Origin: Blastomonas sp.
Lineage (GTDB): Bacteria > Pseudomonadota > Alphaproteobacteria > Sphingomonadales > Sphingomonadaceae
DNA length: 64,000 bases
Assembly (NCBI RefSeq): GCF_030373265.1
Contig: NZ_JAUCZC010000016.1
Span: forward strand, 1-64,000
Direction: 5' to 3'
Shown: positions 25,006-40,437 of the stretch, one piece after another
Layout: each line of letters opens with the position of its first letter
Position numbering within the stretch: the stretch's first letter is position 1
Position numbers and translations under genes: made by a program
Notes under the pieces: model-generated
Told to the model about the DNA's origin: nothing
Seen by the model: only the letters and a program-made list of their open reading frames with translations
Database searches by the model: none

Positions 25006-26652
25006 TCAGGCGGGATCGGCGATCGTTCGGCGCCCCGGCCGAACACTGAGGCTGGTCGTGCCTGCCAATGCTGGATCCCGCTCGCGGATCGTGCGCAATT
25101 TGTGCCAGTGCGCGGTGGCGCTGTCCTTGGTCAGGTTCAGCGTCATATAGCCGCGCGCGCTGGTGTCGGCCCATTTGAGCTGCGGATTGGCACGAACCAG
25201 CGCCCCTGCGACATCCGTGGGCGCAATCGTCGGGGCATAGGCCTCGAAGCCGGGCGAACTGATCGAGTGGCCGGCAAATTCCACGCCCGCTGGCTTGCCG
25301 CCGGCATCGAGGTCGAAACCCCAAGCGTTGTGGCTGTCGCCAGACAGCACGACCAGATCGGCGTCTGCGGCTTGCGCGGATTTCAGCAAGGCCTCGCGCT
25401 GCACCGGATAGCCGTCCCAAGCGTCCATGTTCAACGGCAGCCCGGCCTTGCTTGCGGCAAGCCCCGCGGCCGAGCGGGTCCGCACGATCTGTGGCGCATC
25501 CTTGGGCACCCAGTCGGCCGTCTCCAGCGGCAGCTTGAGCGACCCCATGACGCATTGCTGCGCCCACACCTGCCAGCGCGTTCCCGATGCCTTCGATGCC
25601 CTGAACTGGTCACCCAGCCAGCGCGCCTGGTCATCGCCCAGCATCCGGCGCGATGGGTCCATCCAGGTTTCGTTGCGGAACTTGGCCAGTGCTGCGGCCA
25701 GGTCGCCGCCGCCCGAAAAGGCTTCCGCCAGCTCGGCGGGCTTGTCGCGTCCCGACAGCCGGCTCTCGGTGCGGAACAGTGTGGCCAGATCGCCGATCTG
25801 ATAGCTGCGCCACAGCGTGTCGGACGGCGCCAGATCGGCGACCGGCATCCACTCGCGATAGACCTGTTCGGCGATGCGGCGGCGAACCATATAATCGCCC
25901 TCGGTCTCGCTCTGGTGATTCTGCGCACCGTCCCGATAGGCGTCGTTGGCGATCTCGTGGTCGTCCCACATCGCGATCATCGGCACCACCTGATGCAGCC
26001 GCTGGAGGTCGGCATCGAGCCGGTAGCTGGCATAGCGCAGCCGGTAATCGGCCAAGGTCACCATCTCGTGATCGGGCTGGACGCTGCGGCCGGGCAGGGC
26101 CTGCGTGCGGGTGGGGTACACGTCGAGACCATATTCATAGACGTAATCGCCGGTGTGCACCGCCAAGTCGATATCGTTGCGGGCCGCGGCATGGGCATAG
26201 CCGTTGAACCACCCGAACGGCAGGTTGGAGCAGGAAAAGACGCCGATGTTGAACGCGGCGGTGTCTCCCACCGGCAGGGTGCGGGTGCGCCCGACCGGGG
26301 ATGTGCTGCCGTCCGGCGCCACGAAGCGGTAAAAATACCAGCGGTCAGGGCTCAATCCCGAGACGGTGAGCTTGGCGATATGATCGCGTGCGCCGCTTGC
26401 GGTGACCGATCCTCCGCCGACGACCTTCGCGAAATCGGGGGAGGGGGAAAGCTCCGCGGTCAGCCGGGTATCGCCATCGGCGACATAGCGTGTCCACAGC
26501 AACACGGAGTCGCCCGCAGGCTCGCCGCTCGCGACGCCATGGGTGAAGCCTCGACCGGCAAACAGCGCCTGCGCCGCGCCCGGGATGGACAGTGCGGCCA
26601 GACCGAAGGTCCCGGCCTTGATCAGCAGTCTGCGGTCGATCGTCATTGTCAT
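25006..26652 (-). CDS. phoD: PhoD-type alkaline phosphatase, Tat-exported
   Basis: 548-aa alkaline phosphatase D family enzyme (phosphodi-/monoesterase using Ca/Fe). The N-terminus MTMTIDRRLLIKAGTFGLAAL is a twin-arginine signal, as usual for PhoD, followed by a fibronectin-like domain (FTHGVASGEPAGDSVLLWTR) and the metallophosphatase domain with HTGDYVYEYG, MWDDHEIANDAY and VVLSGDSHNAWGFDLD. I start at 26652, with GGGGGAAG nine bases upstream, not at 26715. A four-unit PhoB-box-like array lies 100 bp upstream on the same strand, suggesting induction by phosphate limitation. Confidence 0.9.
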   Translation of the reverse strand: MTMTIDRRLLIKAGTFGLAALSIPGAAQALFAGRGFTHGVASGEPAGDSVLLWTRYVADGDTRLTAELSPSPDFAKVVGGGSVTASGARDHIAKLTVSGLSPDRWYFYRFVAPDGSTSPVGRTRTLPVGDTAAFNIGVFSCSNLPFGWFNGYAHAAARNDIDLAVHTGDYVYEYGLDVYPTRTQALPGRSVQPDHEMVTLADYRLRYASYRLDADLQRLHQVVPMIAMWDDHEIANDAYRDGAQNHQSETEGDYMVRRRIAEQVYREWMPVADLAPSDTLWRSYQIGDLATLFRTESRLSGRDKPAELAEAFSGGGDLAAALAKFRNETWMDPSRRMLGDDQARWLGDQFRASKASGTRWQVWAQQCVMGSLKLPLETADWVPKDAPQIVRTRSAAGLAASKAGLPLNMDAWDGYPVQREALLKSAQAADADLVVLSGDSHNAWGFDLDAGGKPAGVEFAGHSISSPGFEAYAPTIAPTDVAGALVRANPQLKWADTSARGYMTLNLTKDSATAHWHKLRTIRERDPALAGTTSLSVRPGRRTIADPA

Positions 26653-26751
26653 GGCAAGGCTTCCCCCCGGGTAATGATCTGGCCGCGAGCTACGGCGCAT
26701 GTGCCTGATGATCACGTCCCGTGTCGTGCGTGTGACAATCGTTCAACATTT

Positions 26752-26795
26752 CTAAGATTACAAAAATATGACACAAAAACGTATTTTATATGACA
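26752..26795 (-). promoter_or_regulatory. Putative Pho box upstream of phoD
   Basis: Read on the minus strand, four consecutive 11-bp units start TGTCAT, ATACGT, TGTCAT and TGTAAT, each followed by an A/T-rich filler. Spacing of exactly 11 bp is the PhoB/OmpR-type tandem architecture. The array lies about 100 bp before the phoD ATG and also within 110 bp of the divergent TPR gene. Three units match well; the second is degenerate. Confidence 0.7.
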
Positions 26796-26862
26796 TTGGT
26801 GTTGCACCGGATGTCACAAAGGCATAGCCTGCTGCTTGTCACACGATGAAAGGATTGATGAC

Positions 26863-27273
26863 ATGAACACCAAAGTTATCGCATTCGCGGCGCTGGCCGC
26901 CCTCGGAATGGCTGCCCCTGGCTTTGCCCAGCCTGTGCAGAACCGGGCGGCGGCGACTGAAATCGGATATGACGCAGGCTCGCTTGGCTACGCCGCGATG
27001 CTGCAGGGCAATTATCCGGCCGCTCTGGAACAGATGCACGCCGCAGAGAAACAGGTTTCCCCCGCCGCCCGTCGTGATCCCGCCCGGTTGATCAATATGG
27101 GGCTGGCGTACGCCAAGCTGGGCGACGTCGGATCGGCGCGCCAGCATTATCAGGCGGCGATCGATACCCCGGTGTCGTTCGACATCGTCCTGTCCGATGG
27201 GCGGGTGATGGACAGCCGCGTTGCCGCGCGCCATGCCCTGCGCCGCCTCGATCAGGGCTATGCCAGCCGCTGA
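26863..27273 (+). CDS. Small exported TPR-like protein
   Basis: 136-aa protein with a signal peptide (MNTKVIAFAALAALGMAAPGFAQ) and two or three TPR-like helix pairs (LGYAAMLQGNYPAALEQMHAAEK, ARLINMGLAYAKLGDVGSARQHYQAAID). The ATG at 26863 has AAGGA about nine bases upstream. It is divergent from phoD with a shared 210-bp control region, and a terminator follows it. Role unknown; periplasmic TPR proteins usually mediate protein contacts. Confidence 0.75.
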   Translation: MNTKVIAFAALAALGMAAPGFAQPVQNRAAATEIGYDAGSLGYAAMLQGNYPAALEQMHAAEKQVSPAARRDPARLINMGLAYAKLGDVGSARQHYQAAIDTPVSFDIVLSDGRVMDSRVAARHALRRLDQGYASR

Positions 27274-27305
27274 TCGCCACGATCGCCTTCCGTATTGAAC
27301 GCGAT

Positions 27306-27336
27306 GCCCGGTCGAATCCGTTTCGGCCGGGCTTTT
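27306..27336 (+). terminator. Rho-independent terminator of the TPR gene
   Basis: GCCCGGTCGAA and TTCGGCCGGGC pair over 11 bp with one G-T wobble and a 5-base loop, followed by TTTT. It lies 33 bp after the stop codon. Confidence 0.85.
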
Positions 27337-27536
27337 GCATGGCCAGTCGGACAGATTGTTGCAAAATGATCACCTTCTGAGTCAATCGTGACCGCAAACA
27401 GACGTCGACTGCCGTGCTCCAGGCTGGCATCGACCCCCGACTGCTGCTGCAGTACCCGGAAAATAACGCAATAATTCCAGTCGCCTAGCCTGGAATGCGG
27501 TCCGGTTGACGCTGGATTGTCATATAAGACTCCAAA

Positions 27537-27569
27537 TCGTCACATTCCTGTCGCTGCGCTGTCACTGAA
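27537..27569 (+). promoter_or_regulatory. Putative Pho box upstream of the lipoprotein gene
   Basis: Three 11-bp units in register: TCGTCAC-ATTC, CTGTCGC-TGCG, CTGTCAC-TGAA. The 7-mers are close to the CTGTCAC/T PhoB half-site; the fillers are less AT-rich than ideal. It ends 134 bp before the lipoprotein ATG. A further TTGTCATAT lies just upstream (27517) but out of phase by two bases. Confidence 0.6.
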
Positions 27570-27702
27570 ATAGCGCCGCAGCTTCATCATGCCTGCCTAT
27601 CTGCCCTCTCGAACGGCGTTCCAGGGGGTGGAATCAGCTCATCTCCGCTTCGTTCCTGAAAAGCCGACAGCCCAGCCTGTCCAGATTTGCGGAGAATCAA
27701 AG

Positions 27703-29271
27703 ATGCTTAATGCACGTGTTCGTACGGTCCTGATGGCTTCGGCCGCGGCCCTAGTAGTAACCGCCTGCGGTGCAGATGATATTGCTTCGCCTGGCGAAGG
27801 CGTGATTGTTATTCCTGCCCCCACGCCGGCACCGGCTCCCACGCCAACGCCGACCCCGACCCCGACTCCGCCCAGCTTGGCCACTCCGGCAGCATCCTGC
27901 CCGTCTGCGATTTACACCGATCGCGGCACGATTTCGGGGCCGACCGGCACGTACCGCAACTGCGAGTTCCCCAGCCGTTTCACCAGCAACACCCAGGTGG
28001 CCCGCGTCCCCGGCGTCATCTATTCGATGGGTGGCCGCGTTGACGTCGGCACCGATCAGGGTCCGACGAGCACGGGCACGAATGTCATCCTGACCGTCGA
28101 TCCTGGCGTCGTGGTGTTTGCGAGCGGCGCCTCGTTCCTGGCGGTCAATCGCGGCAACCAGATCGATGCAGTGGGCACGGCGGCCCAGCCGATTATTTTC
28201 ACCGGACGCCAGAACGTGACCGGCGCAGCCACCGATGCAACCTCGCAGCTGTGGGGCGGCATCGTCCTCCTTGGCCGCGCGCCCATCACCGACTGCCTGG
28301 CTTCGGGTGCGACCCCGGGAACCGCCGCGTGCGAGCGTGACACCGAAGGCACCAGCAACGCGCTGTATGGCGGTGCATCGCCGACCGACAGCAGCGGTCG
28401 CATGCGCTATGTTCAGATCCGCTATTCGGGCTTTGTGCTCGAGCGCAACAGCGAGCTTCAGGGTCTTACCCCCTCGGGCACCGGATCGGGCACCGAACTG
28501 CAGTATATCCAGGTCCACAACAGCTCGGATGACGGCATCGAAATCTTCGGTGGCCGCGGTAACGCCAAGCACCTCGTCATCACCGGCGCGGAAGATGACA
28601 GCCTTGATACCGATGTCGGCTACAAGGGCTTCATCCAATATGTCCTCGCTATCCAGCGCTCGGACATCGGCGATTCGATCCTCGAAATCGACTCGGACAA
28701 TGCGAACGATGGTCAGACGCCGCGTCAGAACGTCCGGCTGTCCAACTTCACCTTCGTCAAGAACGGCGACAATCGCGCCGGCAACAACGGAACGGCCATC
28801 CTGCTTCGCGGCGGTGCCGACTATTCGTTCTTCAATGGCGTGATGGTCAGCCCCAACCTTCCGTGCTTCGCGGTCAGCCGGCCTCAGACGGCAGCCACTG
28901 CGGCCGATGCCTCGATCGACGAAGCGGGCGCTCCCGTCTTCCGTTCGGTGCAGTTCCAGTGCCCTTCGGGCAACGCCTTCAGCGGTCGTAACGGCGTCAC
29001 CAACGAGCAGGTCGCTTCGCTGTTCAACGCTGGCACCAACGTCAGCTCGACCTTCTCGCCGACTCTGTCCGCGATTTATATCAACGGCTCTGCAGAAACC
29101 GCCATCCCGGCATTCGATGCTTCGACGATCAATTCGTTCTTCGAGCGCACGAACTATATCGGTGCGGTCCGTGATGCGAATGACCGGTGGTTTGCCGGAT
29201 GGACCTGCAACTCCAACTTCGCCAACTTCGGGTCCAGCAGCGGCAGCTGCACCTCTATCCCCGTGATCTGA
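27703..29271 (+). CDS. Surface lipoprotein with beta-helix-like repeats, TonB-receptor partner
   Basis: 522-aa lipoprotein: signal MLNARVRTVLMASAAALVVTAC with lipobox Cys at residue 22 and Gly after it (no inner-membrane retention Asp), then a Pro-Thr spacer (PAPTPTPTPT type) and a long beta-rich domain. I recognise the conserved blocks of a secreted family found next to TonB receptors in Proteobacteria and Bacteroidetes: LWGGIVLLGRAPI, MRYVQIRYSGF, LQYIQVHNSSDDGIEIFGG, AKHLVITGAEDDSLDTDVGY. A right-handed parallel beta-helix is likely. The ATG at 27703 has GGAG nine bases upstream. Function is unknown; ligand capture for the adjacent receptor is an inference. Confidence 0.75.
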   Translation: MLNARVRTVLMASAAALVVTACGADDIASPGEGVIVIPAPTPAPAPTPTPTPTPTPPSLATPAASCPSAIYTDRGTISGPTGTYRNCEFPSRFTSNTQVARVPGVIYSMGGRVDVGTDQGPTSTGTNVILTVDPGVVVFASGASFLAVNRGNQIDAVGTAAQPIIFTGRQNVTGAATDATSQLWGGIVLLGRAPITDCLASGATPGTAACERDTEGTSNALYGGASPTDSSGRMRYVQIRYSGFVLERNSELQGLTPSGTGSGTELQYIQVHNSSDDGIEIFGGRGNAKHLVITGAEDDSLDTDVGYKGFIQYVLAIQRSDIGDSILEIDSDNANDGQTPRQNVRLSNFTFVKNGDNRAGNNGTAILLRGGADYSFFNGVMVSPNLPCFAVSRPQTAATAADASIDEAGAPVFRSVQFQCPSGNAFSGRNGVTNEQVASLFNAGTNVSSTFSPTLSAIYINGSAETAIPAFDASTINSFFERTNYIGAVRDANDRWFAGWTCNSNFANFGSSSGSCTSIPVI

Positions 29272-29284
29272 ACAAACTGAATAA

Positions 29285-29322
29285 GGGTCGAGCCATCCGG
29301 CTCGACCCCCATACTATGGGGG
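29285..29322 (+). promoter_or_regulatory. Overlapping hairpins before the TonB-receptor gene
   Basis: GGGTCGAGCC-ATCC-GGCTCGACCC (29285-29308) is a perfect 10-bp stem. Its last three C residues also begin a second perfect inverted repeat, CCCCCAT-ACT-ATGGGGG (29306-29322), whose right arm is the receptor's ribosome binding site. The two stems cannot both form fully, so one may hide and the other expose the binding site. Neither is followed by a T run. Confidence 0.6.
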
Positions 29323-29327
29323 TTATT

Positions 29328-32060
29328 ATGCGAATGCCGCTATCCTTTGCGGGCGCACTCTTGCTGAGCACAGCGCTTGTTGCTCCTTCCAGCGCCTGGG
29401 CGCAATCGTCTGACGGGCAGGCTGGTGGTGGCACCGTCAGCCAGAATGCGCAGGCTGGCGGCACCGTCGTCCCGGACGCGCAGGCTGAACCGGACCTCGG
29501 CGCAGAAGAGGAAGTCGATGTTTCCGGTCCCGGTGCTGGCGGGCAGGAGATCGTCGTCCGCGGCCGGTTCATTCCGAATACCCTCAGGGCGAATACCGAG
29601 GTCGTATCGGTGCTGTCCTCGGCGGATATTGCGCGTACCGGCGAAGGCGACATCGCGGGCGCGCTCGAGCGCGTCACCGGTCTCAGCGTCGTCGGCAACG
29701 GTTTCGTCTACGTCCGCGGTTTGGGCGACCGCTATTCGCTGGCTCTGCTCAACGGCTCGCCGCTGCCCAGCCCCGAGCCGCTCAAGCGCGTGGTTCCGCT
29801 CGACATTTTCCCGACGAGCGTGATCGCATCGTCGGTGGTTCAGAAGACGTTTTCGGCGAGTTATCCCGGTGAATTCGGCGGCGGTGCGATCAATCTGACC
29901 ACCATCGCTACTCCCGCAGAACCGTTTCTCAACGTGTCGTTCAGCACGGGTGGGGATACGGAAACCACGGGACAGCTTGGCTACACCTATTTCGGGTCGC
30001 GCACCGACTGGACGGGGTTCGACAATGGAACCCGTGACATTCCCCCGCTGTTGAGCGCGGCGCTGAACAGCGGCCGCCCCATCCTGCCGGGCGCGGACTT
30101 CACGCTCGACGATCTGAAGGCCATCCAGCTTCAGCTTGTCAATGCGCCGACCACCGTCCTGCAACGCAACAACAACATTCCGGTGAACTGGTCCGCGGGC
30201 TTTTCCGGCGGGACCACCATTCCGATTGGCGATACCCAACTGGGCCTGATCGCTTCGGCCAATATCAGCAACAAGTGGCTGACCCGTCAAACGCTCCAGC
30301 AGTCTGCAAGCACGCTCGACCTTTCGGGTACGCCGGCCTCCGACTTTACCCGCGTCATCACCGACAACCGCATCATCGTCAGCGGATTGCTGGGCGCGGC
30401 GCTTGAGTTCGGCGAGCACAAGCTGCGCTGGACCAACCTGTATATCCGCGACACTCTGAAGCAGGGGCGGTTGGGCGTCGGCACCAACATCAACACCTTC
30501 CAGACCGAGTTGCTCGAGCAGGACACCGCCTGGTTCGAGCGCCAGCTGATCAATTCCCAGCTCGTCGGCGAATTCAAGTTCGACGCCTTTTCGGTCAACA
30601 CCCGCGGCGGATATGCCAACTCGCAGCGCGAAGCGCCCTACGAGCGCAGCTTCACGTATGTTCGGTCGACCGTTGATGATCCGAACAATCCCCTGAGCCG
30701 GAAATTCATCAACGACCTCGGGGGGTCTTCCCAGGGCGTAGCTTCGCTGGCGTTCAGCGACCTGAATGAAGATCTCTGGTTCGGCAGTATCGATCTGGGC
30801 TATGAAGTGACCCCCGATATCACGGCGTCGATCGGATATGCCTATACGGACGCATCCCGCAGTGCCGTGCGCAGAGCCTTTCTCTATCGCGCGCCCGGTC
30901 TGCCGATCCCCGTCCAGCAGTTGCGGCCCGATTTCCTGCTGTCCGATGCAAGCGTCCAGTTGTACGACATCTTCCTGATCGAAACGTCGGCGCAGGACGG
31001 CACGGCAGCGTTCCAGGCCGACCTGACGACTCACGCCGGATATTTCCAGCTTCAGGTCAATATGGCCGAAGGATTGAGCCTCAACGCCGGCGTGCGCTAT
31101 GAGGACGCGGAACTGACAGTGGTACCGGTCGATTTGTTCGACAGCGGTGCATCGGCCATCGTCGCGACCAACCTCAACAACGACTACTTCTTGCCCACTG
31201 CAACCCTGACCTGGGAATTCCTTCCCGACATGCAGCTGCGCTTCAACGTGTCGAGCACGATCGCCCGGCCCCAGTTCCGCGAGTTGATCGCGCAGGTCTT
31301 CCAGGACACGGACAGCAACCGCGTGTTCCGTGGCAACCCATCGCTACAGGATAGCCGCCTGATCAATGCCGAGGCACGCTACGAGTGGTATTTCGACCGC
31401 GATCAGCGTTTCTCGGCAGCCGGTTTCTTCAAATCGATCGACAATCCGATCGAAACCTTCACCTCGAATTCGGACAACGTCGTCAACTCCAGTTTTGCCA
31501 ACGCTCCCAAGGCAACGCTGTATGGTGCCGAGGTCGAAGCGATAAAGTATTTCGACATGGCCAACTGGATCGATGGTGATTTTTTCACCTCGCGCCGGCT
31601 GCTGCTTCTGGCAAACTACACCTTCACGCAGTCTGAACTGAAAGTGCGGCCCGGTGATGTGACGGTGGTGAACGGGTTGAGCTCTGCAGCCTCGAATTTC
31701 TTCATCGATGGGGCGCCCTTGACCGGACAGTCGGATCACATCGTCAACCTGCAGATCGGCCTCGAGGATACCGAGCGGCTGTCCCAGCAGACGCTGCTGT
31801 TCATCTACAACAGCGATCGTGTGACCAGCCGCGGCCCTTCCGGTCAGCCGGACATCTTCGAGAAACCCGGGCTTCGTCTCGACTTTGTCGCAAGGCAGGG
31901 CATCCGACTGGGCGGATTGGACGCCGAGCTGAAATTCGAGGCGCGCAACATTACGCGCACCAAGTACCAGGAACTTCAGCGGGTTGGCGACAATCGCATT
32001 TTCTACAACCGCTATGATCTTGGCGCAGCTTTCAGCATTGGTTTGTCCGCCAATTTCTGA
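29328..32060 (+). CDS. TonB-dependent outer-membrane receptor
   Basis: 910-aa TonB-dependent transporter. After a signal peptide (MRMPLSFAGALLLSTALVAPSSAWAQ) there is a low-complexity acidic stretch, then the plug domain with VVSVLSSADIARTGEGDIAGALERVTGLSV and the RGLGDRYSLALLNGSPLPSPEPLKR block, then a 22-strand barrel ending in the expected aromatic C-terminus (GLSANF). There is no STN signalling domain, so no direct sigma/anti-sigma coupling. It follows the lipoprotein by 57 bp and is surely co-transcribed. The start at 29328 has GGGGG six bases upstream; the track start at 29187 overlaps the lipoprotein gene. The transported substrate is unknown. Confidence 0.9.
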   Translation: MRMPLSFAGALLLSTALVAPSSAWAQSSDGQAGGGTVSQNAQAGGTVVPDAQAEPDLGAEEEVDVSGPGAGGQEIVVRGRFIPNTLRANTEVVSVLSSADIARTGEGDIAGALERVTGLSVVGNGFVYVRGLGDRYSLALLNGSPLPSPEPLKRVVPLDIFPTSVIASSVVQKTFSASYPGEFGGGAINLTTIATPAEPFLNVSFSTGGDTETTGQLGYTYFGSRTDWTGFDNGTRDIPPLLSAALNSGRPILPGADFTLDDLKAIQLQLVNAPTTVLQRNNNIPVNWSAGFSGGTTIPIGDTQLGLIASANISNKWLTRQTLQQSASTLDLSGTPASDFTRVITDNRIIVSGLLGAALEFGEHKLRWTNLYIRDTLKQGRLGVGTNINTFQTELLEQDTAWFERQLINSQLVGEFKFDAFSVNTRGGYANSQREAPYERSFTYVRSTVDDPNNPLSRKFINDLGGSSQGVASLAFSDLNEDLWFGSIDLGYEVTPDITASIGYAYTDASRSAVRRAFLYRAPGLPIPVQQLRPDFLLSDASVQLYDIFLIETSAQDGTAAFQADLTTHAGYFQLQVNMAEGLSLNAGVRYEDAELTVVPVDLFDSGASAIVATNLNNDYFLPTATLTWEFLPDMQLRFNVSSTIARPQFRELIAQVFQDTDSNRVFRGNPSLQDSRLINAEARYEWYFDRDQRFSAAGFFKSIDNPIETFTSNSDNVVNSSFANAPKATLYGAEVEAIKYFDMANWIDGDFFTSRRLLLLANYTFTQSELKVRPGDVTVVNGLSSAASNFFIDGAPLTGQSDHIVNLQIGLEDTERLSQQTLLFIYNSDRVTSRGPSGQPDIFEKPGLRLDFVARQGIRLGGLDAELKFEARNITRTKYQELQRVGDNRIFYNRYDLGAAFSIGLSANF

Positions 32061-32089
32061 CGCGTCAGCGCGGTTTCAACGCGACCATA

Positions 32090-32127
32090 AGGGGGGCGGG
32101 CGACAAGCCTGCCCCCTACTTGTTTGC
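32090..32127 (+). terminator. Terminator after the TonB-receptor gene
   Basis: AGGGGGGCGGGC and GCCTGCCCCCT form a stem of about 11 bp (one wobble) with a GACAA-type loop, followed by ACTTGTTT. It separates the receptor from the secretion operon. Confidence 0.75.
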
Positions 32128-32153
32128 GCTTCAGATGCGCGCCGACGCATTTG

Positions 32154-32197
32154 CGTTCAAATATCTGTCACAAACTGGTAATCCAACCGTCATTCAC
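32154..32197 (+). promoter_or_regulatory. Putative Pho box upstream of gspC
   Basis: Units at exact 11-bp spacing: CGTTCAA-ATAT, CTGTCAC-AAAC, TGGTAAT-CCAA, CCGTCAT-TCAC. The last three have GTCA, GTAA and GTCA in register at 32167, 32178 and 32189. The array ends 56 bp before the gspC start. It suggests PhoB control of the type II secretion operon. Confidence 0.7.
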
Positions 32198-32252
32198 TGC
32201 GCCTAGCAGCGAGTGAGGGCCAAGGGGATCGGCCTGCAAAGGGGAGTGATTC

Positions 32253-33149
32253 GTGGCATCAGCGGCCCATAACGGCGCGCAGACAGGCCTTGGCGCTTCA
32301 CTCTCCCGATTCCGGTCGGCAAGGTTTGAAGGGCGGGGCGGCAGTGTCGCTCGGTTTCTGCCGGTCGGCCTGTATGGCTGGCTGCGGGCTCTGCTTGTGC
32401 TGGCGCTGGTCATCCAGCTTGCCCGGCTGATCTGGACAATTGTCACCCCGATTTCCCCTTTGGGCGACTGGCAGGCGCGCACCGCAAACGTCATGTCCGC
32501 TCCCTCGCGCGCAGCGCTCTTCGCCAGTTTTGACGGGTTCGATCGCGCCGCCGCAACGGGCGATGCCAGCGCGGCGGTCACCTCGCTCGATCTTACGCTC
32601 TACGGGCTGCGGATGAACGAGGCTTCGGGCGGCGGCTCTGCGATCATAGCCGGATCCGACGGGGTGCAGCGCAGCTATTCGGTTGGCGAGGAAGTCGCCT
32701 CCGGGGTCAAGCTGGTTGAGGTGCTGTTCGATCATGTCGTGCTCGAGCGCGGCGGATCGCGCGAAAGCCTGTTCATCGATCAGTCGGTTCCCGCCGAGAC
32801 GGTGGGCGATACCGCCGCTGCCCCGGTATCCGGAGCGCCGCAGCTGCCGGTAGCCCAAGCAGGGCCGCTTACGTCAGACGCGATCACCGCAGGCATTGGC
32901 TTTGCACCGCGCTCCGAAAACGGCCGCGTCAGCGGTTTCGCCGTCACCCCCAAGGCCGATGGTGCGGTGTTTGCGCAGGCCGGGTTCAAACCCGGTGATA
33001 TCGTCGTGGAAATCAACGGCCGCAAGGTCAGCTCCGCCCAGGATGGCGCGGCGCTGGCAGGGCAGCTTCGCCCTGGTGCCCGCATTTCGCTGCTCGTCGA
33101 GCGCGGCACAGAAACCCTTCCCATCGCGCTGATCATTCCGGAACCATGA
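32253..33149 (+). CDS. gspC: Type II secretion protein C
   Basis: 298-aa inner-membrane clamp protein that links the secretin GspD to the inner-membrane platform. It has a cytoplasmic N-terminus, one membrane helix (GWLRALLVLALVIQLARLIWTIV), a periplasmic homology region (LTLYGLRMNE... SYSVGEEVASGVKLVEVLFDHVVLERGG) and a C-terminal PDZ domain (FKPGDIVVEINGRKVSS). The GTG at 32253 has AGGGGAG at good spacing. It overlaps gspD by 4 bp (ATGA) and opens the operon behind a Pho-like box. Confidence 0.9.
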   Translation: MASAAHNGAQTGLGASLSRFRSARFEGRGGSVARFLPVGLYGWLRALLVLALVIQLARLIWTIVTPISPLGDWQARTANVMSAPSRAALFASFDGFDRAAATGDASAAVTSLDLTLYGLRMNEASGGGSAIIAGSDGVQRSYSVGEEVASGVKLVEVLFDHVVLERGGSRESLFIDQSVPAETVGDTAAAPVSGAPQLPVAQAGPLTSDAITAGIGFAPRSENGRVSGFAVTPKADGAVFAQAGFKPGDIVVEINGRKVSSAQDGAALAGQLRPGARISLLVERGTETLPIALIIPEP

Positions 33150-35338
33150 AAAAACACATCTCAACCCTGGCGCTGTGCGCCGCGCTCGTGCTGTCGTCGC
33201 CCTTGGCCGCGCAGCACAGCCTGAATGTCCGCGATGCCGATGTCCGCGCCTTTATCGAGGACGCGGCGACGGTCACCGGACGCACCTTCATCATCGACGG
33301 CCGTGTGCAGGGCAAGGTTTCGGTGGTCACCGATCGGCCCTTGAGCCGCAGTGAATATTTCGAGGTGTTCCTTTCCACCTTGCGCGCCAACGGGCTGATC
33401 GCGGTGCCGACCGCCAACGGTGCGTACCGCGTTCAGCCGACCGATGGCGCGGCCTCGGCACCAGGCCGGGTGGGCAGCCGCGGTGGGCAGAACGAGTTCG
33501 TCACCGAAGTCTTCCGCCTGCGCGCGATCGACGCGAGCACGGCGGTCGAGACGCTGCGTCCTCTGGTTAGCCGCGAAGGCTCGATCACCGCGAACCGCAG
33601 CGGCAACAGCCTGGTCGTCGCCGATTATGCCGACAACATCCGCCGTATCCGCGCGCTGATCGGCCAGATCGACCGTGACAATGCGACCACCCAGGTGATC
33701 ACGCTCAACCATGCCGGCGCGCGAGAAATCGCGATGACGCTGCAGCAGCTCAGCCCGGCACCGGGCGGCGGCGCAGAAGGCGGCGGGGGCGCGCCTCTGG
33801 TGTCGGTCGTCGCAGTGGACAGCAGCAACTCGGTCGCGTTGCGCGGCGATGCGCCAACGGTAGCGCGGCTCACCGCGATCGCCCGAGAGCTGGATGCACG
33901 CGCCGCCAATGGCAGCGAAATCCGCGTAATCTGGCTCGATTATGCCGATGCCCAACAGCTGGTGCCGGTGCTGCAGATGATGGCCGGCAGCCAGGGCGGG
34001 GGCGGCATGCAGCCGCTGTCGGCGGCGGTCGCAGCGCCCGCAGCCAATGGCGCGGCGACCGGCGGAGCATCGGCTCCGGTCGGTGGCGCGGTGGCGCTGT
34101 CGAACGGGCGCGGCCAGGCGATCATCACCCGCTATGAGGGCGCCAATGCGGTGATCATCTCGGCACCGGTGGATGTCCAGCGCTCGCTGGCCGAACTGGT
34201 ACGCCAGCTCGATATCCGCCAGGAACAGGTTCTGGTCGAGGCGATCATCGTCGAGATTTCGGACCGGGTGGCGCGCGAGCTCGGCGTCCAGTTCCTCATC
34301 GGCGGCAAGGACATCCCGTTCCTCGTCACGCCGTTCTCCAACGTCACGCCCAACATTCTGGATATTGCAGGCGGCCTGCTTGCCAATGACCTGGATGAAA
34401 CGACCACCGTGATCAACGGCAACACCGTGACCACCAGCACCAACAGCGCGGTGGGCGATTTCCTCCGTCAGAACGCAGCCAACCGCATCTTGGGCGCGCG
34501 CGGCGGCTATACCGGTTTTGCCGCCGATATCGGCAACAACCGCGTGCTGGGCGCGATCATCAACGCGGTGCAGGAAGACAGCGATTCGAACATCCTGTCG
34601 ACGCCGTCGCTGACCGTGAACGACAACGTCCAGGGTTCGATCCTGTTCGGTCAGGAAATCCCGGTCAGCACCGGCGAGGCGCTGTCGAACAATTTCGACA
34701 ACGCCTTCCGCACCATCCAGCGCCAGAATGTCGGCATCGAGCTCGAAGTGAAGCCGCAGATCAATGCCGGCAACCAGGTCAAGCTTCAGATCCGGCAGGA
34801 GGTCAGTTCGATCGTCGGTCCGGTGAGCGATGATTTCAACGAACTGATCATCAACAAGCGCGAAGTCGAAACCACGGTCACCGTCAAGGACCGCGAGATT
34901 ATCGCTCTGGGCGGACTGCTCGACGACAATGAACGCCGCACGATCCAGAAGATTCCGTTCCTGGGCGATATTCCGATCATCGGTGAACTGTTCAAGTCGC
35001 GTGGCAAGGAACGCACCAAGACCAACCTGATGGTGTTCATCCGCCCAACGATCCTGCGCACCGCAGAAGATGCGCAGGCAATCGCTGCGCGGCGTTACAA
35101 TTATGTGCGCGCGGCGCAGATCGAGTTTAACCCCAAAAGCGAACCCTCGCTCGACGCGATTGTGCGCGATTATATGGGGGCAAACATTCCGGTCGCTCCG
35201 CCTGCAGGGCCGAACGATCTGGTCGTATCGCCGCGCGCGATGCCGAACAGCGCGCCGCTCGACAGCATGACACTGCCGCCGAGCCAGCCTGCGCAGCGAT
35301 CAGGCCAGATGCCGCCCTTGCCGGGAGAACAGCCATGA
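33146..35338 (+). CDS. gspD: Type II secretion secretin
   Basis: 730-aa outer-membrane secretin. Signal peptide (MKKHISTLALCAALVLSSPLAAQ), N0 domain (LNVRDADVRAFIEDAATVTGRTFIIDGRVQGKVSV), N1-N3 domains with a Gly/Ala-rich insert in N3 (about residues 275-320), then the secretin core with SNILSTPSLTVNDNVQGSILFGQEIPV and LIINKREVETTVTVKDREIIALGGLL. The C-terminal 90 residues are Pro-rich and may be the pilotin-binding S domain. Translationally coupled to gspC and gspE by ATGA overlaps. Confidence 0.95.
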   Translation: MKKHISTLALCAALVLSSPLAAQHSLNVRDADVRAFIEDAATVTGRTFIIDGRVQGKVSVVTDRPLSRSEYFEVFLSTLRANGLIAVPTANGAYRVQPTDGAASAPGRVGSRGGQNEFVTEVFRLRAIDASTAVETLRPLVSREGSITANRSGNSLVVADYADNIRRIRALIGQIDRDNATTQVITLNHAGAREIAMTLQQLSPAPGGGAEGGGGAPLVSVVAVDSSNSVALRGDAPTVARLTAIARELDARAANGSEIRVIWLDYADAQQLVPVLQMMAGSQGGGGMQPLSAAVAAPAANGAATGGASAPVGGAVALSNGRGQAIITRYEGANAVIISAPVDVQRSLAELVRQLDIRQEQVLVEAIIVEISDRVARELGVQFLIGGKDIPFLVTPFSNVTPNILDIAGGLLANDLDETTTVINGNTVTTSTNSAVGDFLRQNAANRILGARGGYTGFAADIGNNRVLGAIINAVQEDSDSNILSTPSLTVNDNVQGSILFGQEIPVSTGEALSNNFDNAFRTIQRQNVGIELEVKPQINAGNQVKLQIRQEVSSIVGPVSDDFNELIINKREVETTVTVKDREIIALGGLLDDNERRTIQKIPFLGDIPIIGELFKSRGKERTKTNLMVFIRPTILRTAEDAQAIAARRYNYVRAAQIEFNPKSEPSLDAIVRDYMGANIPVAPPAGPNDLVVSPRAMPNSAPLDSMTLPPSQPAQRSGQMPPLPGEQP

Positions 35339-36924
35339 AGATCCGCAAAGGCGACGCTCCCATGGAAGAGGCCGCTAGCGAAGGGCCCGGCTCTGCGCTC
35401 GACCTGTCGGTTGATCGCACCCTGTCGCGGATGATGCTCGACATCCCCTATGGCTTTGCCCGCGACAATGGCGTGGTGATGCTGGGCGAGGCCGAGGGGC
35501 GGCTCAAGGTCGCTTTGCGCGAAGGCGCGGACCCGATCACTTTGCTCGAGGTGCGGCGCTATCTCGCGATGCCGTTCGATGTCGAGATCGCCCCGGTGGC
35601 GCAGTTCGAACGCTATCTGTCGGATCATTATGCGGTCGAGGGCAATGCAGCGGCGATGGCGAGCTCGATGAACATCGATGGCGGCGATCTCGAGATGCTG
35701 GCAAGCGACCTGCCCAGCGCCGAGGATCTGCTCGACAGCGCCGATGATGCGCCCGCGATCCGGCTGATCAACGGCGTGATCGCCGAGGCCGCGCGCCAGG
35801 GCGTGTCTGACATCCATATCGAGCCTTATGAAACCGGGCTGGTCATCCGCATGCGCATGGATGGCGTGCTGCAGGAAAAGCTGCGGATGCCGCCCAATGT
35901 CGCGCCGGTGATCGTCAGCCGGATCAAGGTGATGGCGCGGCTCGACATCGCCGAGCGCCGCGTGCCGCAGGATGGCCGCATCGGTCTGACGATCGGCGGC
36001 AAATTGCTCGACGTCCGCGTCTCGACCTTGCCCAGTCGCGCGGGCGAGCGCGTCGTTCTGCGCCTGCTCGACAAGGAAAACGCCAATATGGATCTGGGGC
36101 TGCTGGGCATGAGTCCGCGCACCCACAAGATCCTCGCCGAGGCGCTGTCCGAACCCAATGGCATCGTGCTGGTCACCGGTCCCACTGGATCGGGCAAGAC
36201 GACGACGCTCTATTCGTGCCTCAAGCAATTGAACGATGGCTCGCGCAACATGCTGACCGTCGAGGACCCGGTCGAATATGCGATCGAAGGCGTCGGCCAG
36301 ACCCAGGTCAATCCCAAGGTCGGGCTCACCTTTGCCGCAGGGCTGCGCGCGATCCTGCGCCAGGATCCCGACGTGGTGATGATCGGCGAAATCCGCGATC
36401 ACGAGACCGCCGAGATCGCGGTGCAGGCTTCGCTGACCGGACATCTGGTGCTCTCGACCGTCCACACCAACGATGCGATCGGCGCGATCACCCGGATGCG
36501 CGACATGAAGATCGAGCCGTTCCTGCTCGCCTCGACCTTGCGTGCGGTCGTTGCGCAGCGGCTGGTGCGGCGGCTGTGCCCCGACTGCCGCGAGCCGGTG
36601 CAGGCCGATGGCTCGCTCGCCTCGCTGCTCGGCTTCGACAAGGGCACCGTGGTCTATCGCCCGGTCGGCTGCGATTCGTGCAACCACACCGGCTTCCAGG
36701 GACGCATCGGCGTGTTCGAGGCGGTGCGCGTCGACGAAACGATCCGCCGGCTGATAAACGACGGCGGCGACGAGGCGATCATCTCGCGGCATGCCTTCCT
36801 CAACGCGCCCAACCTCGGCTCGGCGGCGCGCGAACTCGTCCGCACCGGGCAGACCACCGCGGAAGAGGCGATCCGGATTTCAAGGCGCGAGGCTGAACCG
36901 GTGCCCGAAACGGCCAATGGCTGA
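35335..36924 (+). CDS. gspE: Type II secretion ATPase
   Basis: 529-aa cytoplasmic ATPase that powers the secretion piston. N1E/N2E domains lead to the RecA-like core with Walker A GPTGSGKTTTLYS near residue 282, the Asp box LTVEDPVEY, Walker B RQDPDVVMIGEIRD and the His box. The tetracysteine zinc motif is intact: CPDCREP and CDSCNHTGFQGR. It starts with an ATGA overlap to gspD and its 3' end overlaps gspF by 8 bp. Confidence 0.96.
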   Translation: MKIRKGDAPMEEAASEGPGSALDLSVDRTLSRMMLDIPYGFARDNGVVMLGEAEGRLKVALREGADPITLLEVRRYLAMPFDVEIAPVAQFERYLSDHYAVEGNAAAMASSMNIDGGDLEMLASDLPSAEDLLDSADDAPAIRLINGVIAEAARQGVSDIHIEPYETGLVIRMRMDGVLQEKLRMPPNVAPVIVSRIKVMARLDIAERRVPQDGRIGLTIGGKLLDVRVSTLPSRAGERVVLRLLDKENANMDLGLLGMSPRTHKILAEALSEPNGIVLVTGPTGSGKTTTLYSCLKQLNDGSRNMLTVEDPVEYAIEGVGQTQVNPKVGLTFAAGLRAILRQDPDVVMIGEIRDHETAEIAVQASLTGHLVLSTVHTNDAIGAITRMRDMKIEPFLLASTLRAVVAQRLVRRLCPDCREPVQADGSLASLLGFDKGTVVYRPVGCDSCNHTGFQGRIGVFEAVRVDETIRRLINDGGDEAIISRHAFLNAPNLGSAARELVRTGQTTAEEAIRISRREAEPVPETANG

Positions 36925-38122
36925 CTTTGCCTATAAGGTGATCGATGCGGCCGGGCGCGAACGGCAGGGGCGGATTAGCGCGCCTTCCGATGCGCAGGCG
37001 CGCGCAGCGTTGATCCGCAAGGCGTTCCACATCGTCACCGTATCGCCAGCGCCGCCGCGCAAAGCGTTGCTGTCGCAGCGCACCGCGCGATTGAGCCCCA
37101 AGCAGCTCACCCTGTTCACCCGGCAGATGTCGTCGCTGATGTCCGTCAGCCCGCTCGAGGAAGCGCTGCGCACGATCAGCCGCCAGACCGAAAAGGCCAA
37201 CGCCCGCGATGTGCTGATCAACGTTCACGCAGGCGTGATGGAGGGCCAGTCGCTTGCTGAATCGATGGCGCGCGAGGCACGCAGCTTTCCGCCGCTGTAT
37301 CGCGCAATGATCAGCGCGGGCGAAAGCTCGGGCTCGCTGCCGGTGATCACCGAGCGGCTGGCGGCCTTGCTCGAGCAGCAGGCCGAGGTGCGCGGCAAGA
37401 TCATCGGGGCGCTGGCCTATCCGATCATCCTGACGCTGGTCGCCTTCGGCGTGGTCGCAGGCCTGATGATCTCGGTGGTCCCGCGGGTGGTCGAGCAGTT
37501 CGACAATGCCCAGACCCAGCTGCCGCTGATCACGCGGATCGTCATCGGGCTTTCCGATTTTCTCAGTACCTGGTGGTGGGCGCTTGCCATCGCGCTGGTG
37601 CTGGCGGGCATCGCCTTCTGGCGCGCGATGAAGGTGCCCAAATTCAAATACCGCTTCGACGGCATGCTGCTCAGGCTGCCGCTGATCGGACGGCTGATCC
37701 GCGACCTGAACGCGGCCAAGCTGGCGCGCACGCTGGCCACGATGGTGCACAGCCGCCTGCCGCTGCTCGAGGGCATGAAGCTGACCACCCGCACCGTGCG
37801 CAATGCGGTGCTGCGCGAGGCGCTCGAAGAAGCGGTCGAATCGATCCGTTCGGGCGGGTCCTTGTCGGGCGCGCTCCGCAATGCGGGGACGTTTCCGCCG
37901 CTTCTGGTGTATCTTGTTGCCAGCGGCGAAAGCGCCGGCCAGCTCGACACGATGCTCGAGCGCGCCGCCGAGTATCTGGAGCGCGAGTTCCAGAATTTCA
38001 CCTCCACCGCGATGGCGCTGCTCGAGCCGGCGATCATCGTGGTGATGGGCGGGGTGGTCGCACTGATCATCCTGTCGATCCTGCTGCCGATTCTGCAGCT
38101 TCAGAACCTGACTGGCTTATGA
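36917..38122 (+). CDS. gspF: Type II secretion inner-membrane platform protein
   Basis: 401-aa polytopic membrane protein of the GspF/PilC family. Two cytoplasmic GspF domains (FTRQMSSLMSVSPLEEAL and ARTLATMVHSRLPLLEGMKL) are separated by membrane helices around residues 165-190 and 215-235, with a final helix near 375-395. The true start is the ATG at 36917, which overlaps the gspE stop (ATGGCTGA); the track start at 36791 reads the gspE frame. It contacts GspE and GspL in known systems. Confidence 0.95.
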   Translation: MADFAYKVIDAAGRERQGRISAPSDAQARAALIRKAFHIVTVSPAPPRKALLSQRTARLSPKQLTLFTRQMSSLMSVSPLEEALRTISRQTEKANARDVLINVHAGVMEGQSLAESMAREARSFPPLYRAMISAGESSGSLPVITERLAALLEQQAEVRGKIIGALAYPIILTLVAFGVVAGLMISVVPRVVEQFDNAQTQLPLITRIVIGLSDFLSTWWWALAIALVLAGIAFWRAMKVPKFKYRFDGMLLRLPLIGRLIRDLNAAKLARTLATMVHSRLPLLEGMKLTTRTVRNAVLREALEEAVESIRSGGSLSGALRNAGTFPPLLVYLVASGESAGQLDTMLERAAEYLEREFQNFTSTAMALLEPAIIVVMGGVVALIILSILLPILQLQNLTGL

Positions 38123-38130
38123 GGAATATC

Positions 38131-38601
38131 ATGTTGAACTTTCGATCCGCGCTGCTGAAGCGCCTCTCGCCCAAGGCACGCAAGCGTGCCAATGGCTTCA
38201 CCCTCGTCGAACTGATGGTGGTGATCTTCATCATCGGTCTGCTCGCGACCGTGGTCGTGATCAATGTGCTGCCCAGCCAGGACCGCGCGATGACCGAAAA
38301 GGCGCGCAGCGACATTGCGACCTTGAGCCAGGCGCTCGAGATGTACCGGCTCGACAATCTTGCCTATCCGGGGTCGGCAGAGGGCTTGAACGCGCTGATG
38401 ACCCCACCTCCCACGCTGACGCAGCCCGGCCGCTATCGCAGCGGTGGCTATATCAAGCAGCTGCCGCAGGATCCGTGGGGCCGCCCGTACCAGTACACCA
38501 GCCCCGGCACCACCGGCGCGTTCGACCTCTATTCGCTGGGCGCCGACGGCGCACCGGGCGGCGAGAACGAGAATGCGGATATCACCGCCAATGGGGGGTG
38601 A
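38131..38601 (+). CDS. gspG: Type II secretion major pseudopilin
   Basis: 156-aa major pseudopilin. The prepilin peptidase site is RANG/FTLVELMVV with a Glu at position +5, after an unusually long leader of about 25 residues (LNFRSALLKRLSPKARKRANG). The hydrophobic stalk, the QALEMYRLDNLAYPGSAEGL loop and the calcium-binding C-terminal region (LYSLGADGAPGGENENADI) are all conserved. AGGA eight bases upstream supports the ATG at 38131 over that at 38119. Prepilin peptidase (gspO/pilD) is not in the window. Confidence 0.95.
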   Translation: MLNFRSALLKRLSPKARKRANGFTLVELMVVIFIIGLLATVVVINVLPSQDRAMTEKARSDIATLSQALEMYRLDNLAYPGSAEGLNALMTPPPTLTQPGRYRSGGYIKQLPQDPWGRPYQYTSPGTTGAFDLYSLGADGAPGGENENADITANGG

Positions 38602-38608
38602 GACGCTT

Positions 38609-38769
38609 AAATCCTCCCCCAGCTTGCTGGGGGAGGGGGACCGTTCGCGCAGCGAATGGTGGAGGGGAAGCGGGATCGTACCGATGAAAAAGACGTGCGC
38701 CTCGCTTCCCCTCCACCCCGCCGCTGCGCGGCGCAGTCCCCCACCCCGAGACAAGCTCGGGGAGGATTT
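38609..38769. repeat. Palindromic repeat element, family B/C, copy 1 (gspG-gspH)
   Basis: An 11-bp outer stem (AAATCCTCCCC at 38609-38619, GGGGAGGATTT at 38759-38769) and a 15-bp inner stem (38658-38672 with 38703-38717, GGTGGAGGGGAAGCG and its exact complement) frame several smaller hairpins. The element lies inside the secretion operon. Its GGGGAGG-GGGACCG...GGTGGAGGGG half is shared with the element at 40.46-40.6 kb. Confidence 0.85.
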
Positions 38770-39256
38770 GAGCAACGGCTTCACGCTGATCGAACTGATG
38801 GTGGTGCTGTTCATCGTCGGGCTGGTCGCGGGCGCTGTGATGCTGTCCATCCCTGGCGACAGCTCGGCGCTTTCCGAAGATGCCGATCGCTTTGCCGCCC
38901 GCGTCGCCGCAGCGCGCGACGAGGCGGTGGTGAGCGCGCGGCCGATCGCGGTGTGGATCGCGCCATCGGGCTACGGCTTCGATGCGCGGCAGGACCGGCA
39001 ATGGGTTCCCTTGAACGCGCGGACGCTGGCCAACCGGGACTGGAAGCCGGGGACTATCGCCCGGATCGAAGGCGAGGCTGCACAATCCGTTGAACCGCCG
39101 GGCACCGATCCTGCCGCTGCAGCACCGACACGCGCGCGCTTCTGGTTCGACAGCACCGGACTGCCCAATGCGCCGGTGACGGTGTTGCTGTCGCGCGGCG
39201 CCAACAGCGACCGGATCATCATCAGCGCCACGGGGGAGGTGGGCCGCCCCCGGTGA
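38684..39256 (+). CDS. gspH: Type II secretion minor pseudopilin H
   Basis: Minor pseudopilin of the pilus tip. The prepilin site NG/FTLIELMVVLFIVGLVAG with Glu+5 and the C-terminal GspH domain (RFAARVAAARDEAVVSARPIAVWI, RFWFDSTGLPNAPVTVLLSR) are intact. The start is odd. From the ATG at 38684 the leader is about 32 residues and is encoded by a palindromic repeat; from the TTG at 38768 the protein would begin MSNGFTLIEL, a normal short leader, with GGAGGA just before it but only two bases away. It is the last gsp gene here; gspI, J, K, L, M and N are not adjacent. Confidence 0.85.
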   Translation: MKKTCASLPLHPAAARRSPPPRDKLGEDLSNGFTLIELMVVLFIVGLVAGAVMLSIPGDSSALSEDADRFAARVAAARDEAVVSARPIAVWIAPSGYGFDARQDRQWVPLNARTLANRDWKPGTIARIEGEAAQSVEPPGTDPAAAAPTRARFWFDSTGLPNAPVTVLLSRGANSDRIIISATGEVGRPR

Positions 39257-39270
39257 GCGTCCCCGCTCGG

Positions 39271-40437
39271 TTACCGCCAGCGCAGATTGCCGCGCGTCAG
39301 CTGGTCGAGCTTGGTCACCCCCATCAGCTTCATGCCGCGCTCGATTTCCCCGCGCAGGTTGGCCAAAGTCCGCTCGACCCCGCGCTGGCCCCCGGCGGCG
39401 AGCGCGTAGAGATACAGACGCCCGCCCGAACACGCCTTGGCGCCGACGCTGAGCGCTTTCAGCACATGCGTGCCCCGCGTGATGCCGCCATCGCAGATCA
39501 CCTCGATCCTGTCGCCGACCGCATCGACGATCTCGGCGAGCTGGTCGAACGGTGCGCGGCTGCCGTCGAGCTGCCGTCCGCCATGGTTCGACACCATGAT
39601 CGCGGTCGCGCCGATCGCGACCGCGCGGCGCGCATCCTCGACGCTCATGATCCCTTTCAGGCAGAACGGGCCGTCCCACGCCTTGCGGATCTCCTCGGCC
39701 ATCGCCCAGTCCATCTGCTGGTCGAGCATGGTGTTGAAATAGTCCGCCACCGAAATCGCCGCGTTGGTGCCCGCCGCGATATGGCTTTCCAGATTGGGCA
39801 GCGAGAAGCGCTCGCGGCCCATGTAATTGAACGACCAGCCGGGATGGGTAGCAAAGCTCATCGCCGATCCCGGGGTGAGCCGCGGCGGAGAGGTGAAGCC
39901 GGTGTGCAAACACCGCTCGCGCTTGCCCGAGACGATGGTATCGACCGTCAGCGCCAGCGCATCGAACTTCGCGTCCTTGGCCGCCTGGATCAGCGCGGCG
40001 TTCAAGCCCTTGTCCTTGTGGACATAGAGCTGGAACAGTTTGGGGCTGGCGATGCTGTCGCCGATCTCGGCAAGGCTGACCGTGGCGAGCGAGGAGATGC
40101 CGAAGAAGGTGTTGAACTTTTCCGCCGCCGCACCGACCGCCTTCTCGCCGCGCCAATGGAACAGCCGCTGCAAGGCTGTCGGTGACAGGAACAACGGCAT
40201 ATCGATCTTGCGGCCCATCAGCGTGGTCGTCATGTCGATATCTGCGACCCCTGCGAGCACATTGGGGACGAGGTCGCACTCTTCATACGCCGTGGTGTTG
40301 CGGTTGCGGGTCACCTCGTCATCGGCAGCGCCATCGATATAGTGGAACACCGGATAGGGCAGCTTCTTGCGTGCCAGCTCGCGAAAGTCATCGACCGTGT
40401 GGCAATCGGCCAGCCGCCGGACCGGAAAACGTCGCAT
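39271..40437 (-). CDS. lldD: FMN-dependent alpha-hydroxy-acid dehydrogenase (L-lactate type)
   Basis: 388-aa TIM-barrel flavoenzyme that oxidises L-lactate or another 2-hydroxy acid and passes electrons to quinones. Family landmarks: FHYIDGAADDEVT, FLSPTALQRLFHWRGE, FQLYVHKDKG, LTVDTIVSGKRERC, CLKGIMSVEDA (FMN Lys), SNHGGRQLD (catalytic His and Arg) and VICDGGITRGTHVLKAL. It is convergent with gspH, 14 bp apart, and its upstream side carries a palindromic repeat. Glycolate or mandelate as substrate cannot be excluded. Confidence 0.88.
   Translation of the reverse strand: MRRFPVRRLADCHTVDDFRELARKKLPYPVFHYIDGAADDEVTRNRNTTAYEECDLVPNVLAGVADIDMTTTLMGRKIDMPLFLSPTALQRLFHWRGEKAVGAAAEKFNTFFGISSLATVSLAEIGDSIASPKLFQLYVHKDKGLNAALIQAAKDAKFDALALTVDTIVSGKRERCLHTGFTSPPRLTPGSAMSFATHPGWSFNYMGRERFSLPNLESHIAAGTNAAISVADYFNTMLDQQMDWAMAEEIRKAWDGPFCLKGIMSVEDARRAVAIGATAIMVSNHGGRQLDGSRAPFDQLAEIVDAVGDRIEVICDGGITRGTHVLKALSVGAKACSGGRLYLYALAAGGQRGVERTLANLRGEIERGMKLMGVTKLDQLTRGNLRWR

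Follow-up and report, generated by a model that had tools for sequence, protein, structure and literature searches.

Type II secretion systems under phosphate control in Pseudomonas serve phosphate scavenging, e.g., Hxc with LapA in P. aeruginosa. The substrate of Hxc is LapA, and we know of no linked lipoprotein/TonB-dependent receptor pair of the kind described below. Caulobacter crescentus has the gene order cc0170 (ElpS), cc0171 (TonB receptor), gspC and following gsp genes (PMC2996285). The lipoprotein ElpS (CC0170) is produced only at low phosphate, its overexpression increases alkaline phosphatase activity in the medium, and it gets to the cell surface without the type II system, which is needed only for its release (PMC2996285). 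In Caulobacter, several TonB receptors and the type II system belong to the PhoB regulon (PMC11208175). A similar arrangement has been known since 2010 in Sphingomonas alaskensis, Hyphomonas and Xanthomonas (PMC2996285). The DNA analyzed here, termed the window, is a 64-kb stretch of the 3.66-Mb genome of a Blastomonas species (Sphingomonadaceae). It carries the gene order of the Caulobacter module (lipoprotein, TonB receptor, gspC, gspD and further gsp genes), adjoined by the phosphatase gene phoD, and there are arrays of TGTCA-like units at three of its promoters. Control of all three promoters by PhoB is very likely, as judged from the sequence and its conservation.

The likeness to the Caulobacter elpS-TonB receptor-gspC-N cluster consists of gene order, the lipoprotein signal, the link to phosphate starvation and the inclusion of type II secretion in the PhoB regulon. 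A first-pass annotation of this DNA had pointed to Caulobacter as a precedent; the comparison is apt, and closer than was stated there, since the gene order agrees and PhoB controls type II secretion in Caulobacter (PMC2996285, PMC11208175). Unlike in Caulobacter, the Blastomonas operon holds gspC-H only and phoD adjoins divergently. A further difference is that in Blastomonas the lipoprotein operon and gspC each have a documented Pho-box array of their own. The features of the locus are as follows, with Pfam accessions and E values in parentheses.

25006-26652, minus strand: phoD, PhoD-family alkaline phosphatase with twin-arginine signal MTMTIDRRLLIKAG (PF09423, 1.6e-97; PF16655, 9.6e-25)
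26752-26806, minus strand: phoD Pho-box array, TGCAACACCAA TGTCATATAAA ATACGTTTTTG TGTCATATTTT TGTAATCTTAG, core pair at 26756-26773
27538-27570, plus strand: three-unit Pho-box array upstream of the lipoprotein/receptor operon, CGTCACATTCC TGTCGCTGCGC TGTCACTGAAA
27596-27601, plus strand: -10-like CCTATC, 14 nt past an array phase position, invariant in nine species
27703-29271, plus strand: ElpS-like lipoprotein, lipobox Cys22, predicted right-handed parallel beta-helix
29328-32060, plus strand: TonB-dependent receptor (PF00593, 1.2e-26; PF07715, 5e-12)
32155-32198, plus strand: gspC Pho-box array, GTTCAAATATC TGTCACAAACT GGTAATCCAAC CGTCATTCACT
32202-32207, plus strand: -10-like CCTAGC, 14 nt after the start of the last gspC unit, invariant in nine species
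32253-33149, plus strand: gspC (PF11356, 2.1e-24)
33146-35338, plus strand: gspD, secretin (PF00263, 4.7e-48)
35335-36924, plus strand: gspE, ATPase (PF00437, 5e-141)
36917-38122, plus strand: gspF (PF00482, 1e-55)
38120-38601, plus strand: gspG, start approximate (PF08334, 7.7e-38 on open reading frame (ORF) 37573-38601)
38678-39256, plus strand: gspH, start approximate, the last gsp gene at the locus (PF12019, 3.6e-10)

The phoD product has PhoD and PhoD_N domains, and its twin-arginine signal was read off the sequence. The start of phoD was taken as 26652, with in-frame alternatives at 26700 and 26715. The TonB-dependent receptor gene has no promoter array of its own and is probably in one operon with the lipoprotein gene.

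TGTCA-like units with 11-bp spacing on the sense strand of the three promoters had been reported in the first-pass annotation, and they are present where it placed them, near enough. All three arrays resemble PhoB sites. The position given for phoD (26752-26795) was exact; the lipoprotein array begins one base later than stated, at 27538 and not 27537, and the gspC array is placed here at 32155-32198. Four units had been counted before phoD, but unit 2 is not TGTCA-like, so that the array consists of three good units and a gap, with a fifth, partial unit (TGCAACACCAA) directly upstream.

The arrays were scored with a PhoB matrix of one 7-bp unit plus a 4-bp spacer, which was derived from pst/pho promoters of this genome and its relatives. 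None of the phoD, lipoprotein and gspC sites was in the training set. The pst promoter of the Blastomonas genome, TGTCATAAATC CGTCATCCCAT TGTCATCTTTG, is an array of the same kind. The matrix ranking covers both strands of the window, and ranking over the whole genome was done by pattern search. The phoD pair ranks first with 21.1 bits, and the gspC pairs rank second and third with 18.9 and 16.0 bits; the best pair on the reversed-sequence control has 15.2 bits. Scored as a triple, the gspC array has 28.8 bits and ranks first, the top control triple being 14.2. The phoD and gspC sites stand above the controls. The lipoprotein site, proposed along with them, is within noise as a pair, since its 9.3 bits are exceeded by the best controls from the reversed sequence, and it is modest as a triple (11.9 bits, rank five, with one control reaching 14.2). 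In the pattern search the strict pair TGTCAY-N5-TGTMA has eight matches genome-wide, including phoD, and none in the control. A perfect three-unit pattern occurs four times in 3.66 Mb, among them the pst promoter and gspC. If one mismatch is allowed, there are 11 three-unit matches genome-wide, and these include the lipoprotein site. At up to two mismatches there are 53 matches against 33 in the reversed control, so matches at this low stringency are mostly noise.

All three arrays are found at the same place and in exact 11-bp phase in nine of nine Blastomonas species (this genome and eight congeners), and the bases around the arrays diverge between congeners while the phase stays. The lipoprotein array has a mean triple score of 17.8 bits at -165 in the nine species, against a median of -16.5 across tested positions. 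The gspC array likewise has a mean triple of 28.8 bits at -87. With the period set to 11, the mean best three-unit score in these species is 19.5 for the lipoprotein promoter and 24.4 for gspC; for both of them it is 2.5 or lower at periods 8-10 and 12-14. The best two-unit score for phoD is 20.4 at period 11 and 11.3 or less at other periods. The -10-like CCTA shares one phase with the repeats in the pst, lipoprotein and gspC promoters of this genome. In PhoB-activated promoters the Pho box takes the place of the -35 element, and the layout of array and -10 is as expected for such promoters.

Beyond the genus, an alignment of the lipoprotein was scanned against one genome per species. This yielded 80 loci, from sphingomonads to Brevundimonas (Caulobacterales), Xanthomonas, Luteimonas and Alteromonadales, some of them cut by contig ends. 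Pho boxes were counted in upstream regions bounded by ORFs, provided that they were on the sense strand and scored at least 12 bits. Such a box is present before 40 of 48 lipoprotein genes (83%; antisense, 5 of 48) and before 11 of 16 gspC genes (69%; antisense, 0 of 16). None of 45 receptor orthologues has an upstream box at this threshold, and other genes have one in 21 of 264 cases (8%). A comparison with dinucleotide shuffles of each region gave p ≤ 0.01 for 40 of 77 lipoprotein upstream regions, a figure that is too low for some loci because the upstream region is coding (the match begins inside the gene, or there are tandem copies). The ORF-bounded test was used for the main figures in its place. 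The -10-like CCTA, which is not part of the matrix, lies at one of the eleven phases in 17 of 20 lipoprotein and gspC promoters of relatives, although some of these 20 loci are close relatives and do not represent 20 independent events.

The receptor gene nearly always follows the lipoprotein gene in the 80 loci. gspC/gspD is downstream of the pair in 27 loci and divergently upstream in two, and the order lipoprotein, receptor, gspC is found again and again, in sphingomonads, Brevundimonas and Xanthomonas as well as in other lineages. The homologues of the lipoprotein in Brevundimonas have 39-40% identity, and two of three have the same gene order. Among the loci compared, Blastomonas alone has a close PhoD adjoining the pair. 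The first-pass annotation had treated phosphatase, pair and secretion genes as one module; as a fixed three-part unit this does not hold, since in most relatives the Pho-controlled pair lacks adjacent gsp genes. What is kept family-wide in these loci is the lipoprotein/receptor pair, with gsp adjacency in about a third.

The following mechanism is proposed. In phosphate starvation, phosphorylated PhoB would bind the 11-bp direct repeats before phoD, the lipoprotein/TonB-receptor operon and gspCDEFGH and activate them. At the lipoprotein/receptor and gspC promoters it would act over the in-phase -10 (CCTATC or CCTAGC). PhoD, the surface lipoprotein with its TonB-dependent receptor, and the secretin with part of the type II inner-membrane machinery would be produced simultaneously. 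By analogy to ElpS of Caulobacter, the type II system may secrete a factor that releases the lipoprotein or hydrolyzes phosphate esters, and the pair may aid capture and import of a phosphorus-containing ligand. The repeats, their phase and conservation, and the gene identities are read from the sequences themselves; PhoB binding, induction, the ligand and the secreted substrate are what we infer. Induction of the pair, gspC and phoD together at low phosphate is very likely and well supported, and surface capture with uptake is plausible. It is doubtful that the type II system secretes the lipoprotein itself. Export to the surface by this route, as the first-pass annotation had described the Caulobacter precedent, is contradicted there, where ElpS is at the surface even when type II secretion is lacking (PMC2996285). 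Taken as a whole, activation of the three promoters by PhoB is considered highly probable.

Several observations weigh against this proposal. In this genome alone the lipoprotein site is weak and unconvincing because of its low pair and triple scores. For the phoD array no in-phase -10 was seen. The type II operon has gspC-H only; contig C35 carries gspI, J and K and contig C53 carries gspL, which in congeners is adjoined by a gspM-like gene, so that no complete gspC-N set in one cluster is present in this genome. No Pho box was found at gspIJK and gspLM in the genome, and the whole secretion system is therefore not co-induced via this kind of site. Expression of the gsp genes in Caulobacter is also little changed between rich and poor media, with a 1.7-fold difference for gspE and gspL (PMC2996285).

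The weakness of the lipoprotein site would be explained if its array were a chance run of TGTCA-like words and the real PhoB targets were phoD and gspC only. This is given hardly any probability, in view of the position and phase kept in all nine species, the mean triple score far above the median, and the boxes before 83% of the lipoprotein orthologues. It is also possible that the arrays are bound by another response regulator of the OmpR family with a similar 11-bp direct-repeat site, in which case the genes would respond to a different signal. Direct repeats of 10-11 bp are bound by proteins related to PhoB, and the 33 matches to a PhoB model in the genome represent many OmpR-family regulators, one of them encoded in the window (C16:57955-58632). 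This alternative is nevertheless improbable, as nothing else in the window matches the matrix made from pst/pho promoters as well as these sites do, and phosphate control of the corresponding module has been measured in Caulobacter (PMC2996285, PMC11208175). A third explanation leaves PhoB control of each promoter in place but holds that the genes are neighbors by history, with no common pathway for PhoD, the pair and type II secretion. The frequent absence of adjacent gsp genes, the restriction of an adjacent phoD to Blastomonas and the division of the gsp set over three genome sites are consistent with it. Against this are the recurrence of the lipoprotein-receptor-gspC order in separate lineages and the requirement of the Caulobacter type II system for ElpS release (PMC2996285). 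A purely historical association is rather unlikely on balance.

The lipoprotein has no Pfam or NCBIfam match. Cys22 is invariant in the family-wide alignment. An AlphaFold2 model (mean pLDDT 85.9, pTM 0.85) predicts a right-handed parallel beta-helix, and a fold search against solved structures gave only loose beta-helix neighbors with E values of 6e-3 or worse and no function. The pair is similar to SusCD of Bacteroidota in that a TonB-dependent receptor is encoded with a surface lipoprotein. However, the fold predicted for the lipoprotein here is a beta-helix and not of the SusD type (alpha-helical TPR). Tentatively, the pair may be a widespread Pho-controlled surface capture and import device of Proteobacteria, with a phosphorus-containing ligand and a beta-helix lipoprotein, functionally comparable to SusCD, with type II secretion and a phosphatase as separate later additions in some lineages.

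Across the genus the pair (27800-32060 in the window) is present as two diverged alleles at one locus. This genome and one congener (G001) have the first, with 93% lipoprotein identity, and seven congeners have the second, at about 52%. The flanking genes are about 80-93% identical, and both alleles share the core promoter and the lipoprotein signal peptide. The pattern looks like surface-cassette exchange. Other order-level relatives, e.g., G040, G046, G052 and G054, have two lipoprotein-like repeats in one frame of 900-1000 residues, and the neighboring receptor is about 30% identical where examined (G052, G054). Relative G020 (L079) has a second high-scoring phoB copy (336 bits, C22:39313-39993) less than 4 kb from its lipoprotein (C22:34175-35755)/receptor pair, a further link to phosphate control.

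Two other genes flank the features described above.

26863-27273, plus strand: small secreted TPR-repeat protein, divergent from phoD (Pfam TPR_2, 2.3e-7), kept in all congeners
39271-40437, minus strand: FMN-dependent dehydrogenase, an unrelated gene after gspH (PF01070, 4.5e-125)

About 50 bp upstream of the TPR gene, on its sense strand, several congeners keep TGTCACATAAGCGTAGCA (26790-26860, plus strand; 13.4 bits). The counterpart in this genome scores only 6.1 bits, and phosphate control of the TPR gene is for that reason not claimed.

Elsewhere, the genome encodes PhoB, PhoR, PhoU and PstSCAB, as well as a PhoX homologue with no site above 11 bits within 1.5 kb. The second-best pair among the pattern matches (C27:45233-45249, L272) is located upstream of genes for a metallophosphoesterase and a family-4 glycosyltransferase, which may serve lipid remodeling at low phosphate. 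A perfect three-unit array, TGTCACGACTATGTCATTCAACTGTAAT (C11:44866-44893), is located before a small putative membrane protein. Several other high-scoring sites have no evident phosphate gene after them and may be false positives.

The module is already known from Caulobacter and the gene order was published in 2010. What is added here are the Pho-box arrays of the three promoters, which are conserved across the order, and the phase-locked -10, together with the pair as the conserved unit, the split gsp set with a box only at C-H, and phoD as a Blastomonas-specific neighbor. The single-species finding on ElpS in Caulobacter thereby becomes an order-wide, testable rule: PhoB-type sites and a phase-locked -10 would mark the pair and gspC across sphingomonads. 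As the conserved unit appears to be the pair and not the secretion system, experiments on the ligand and on the function of ElpS are directed at the receptor.

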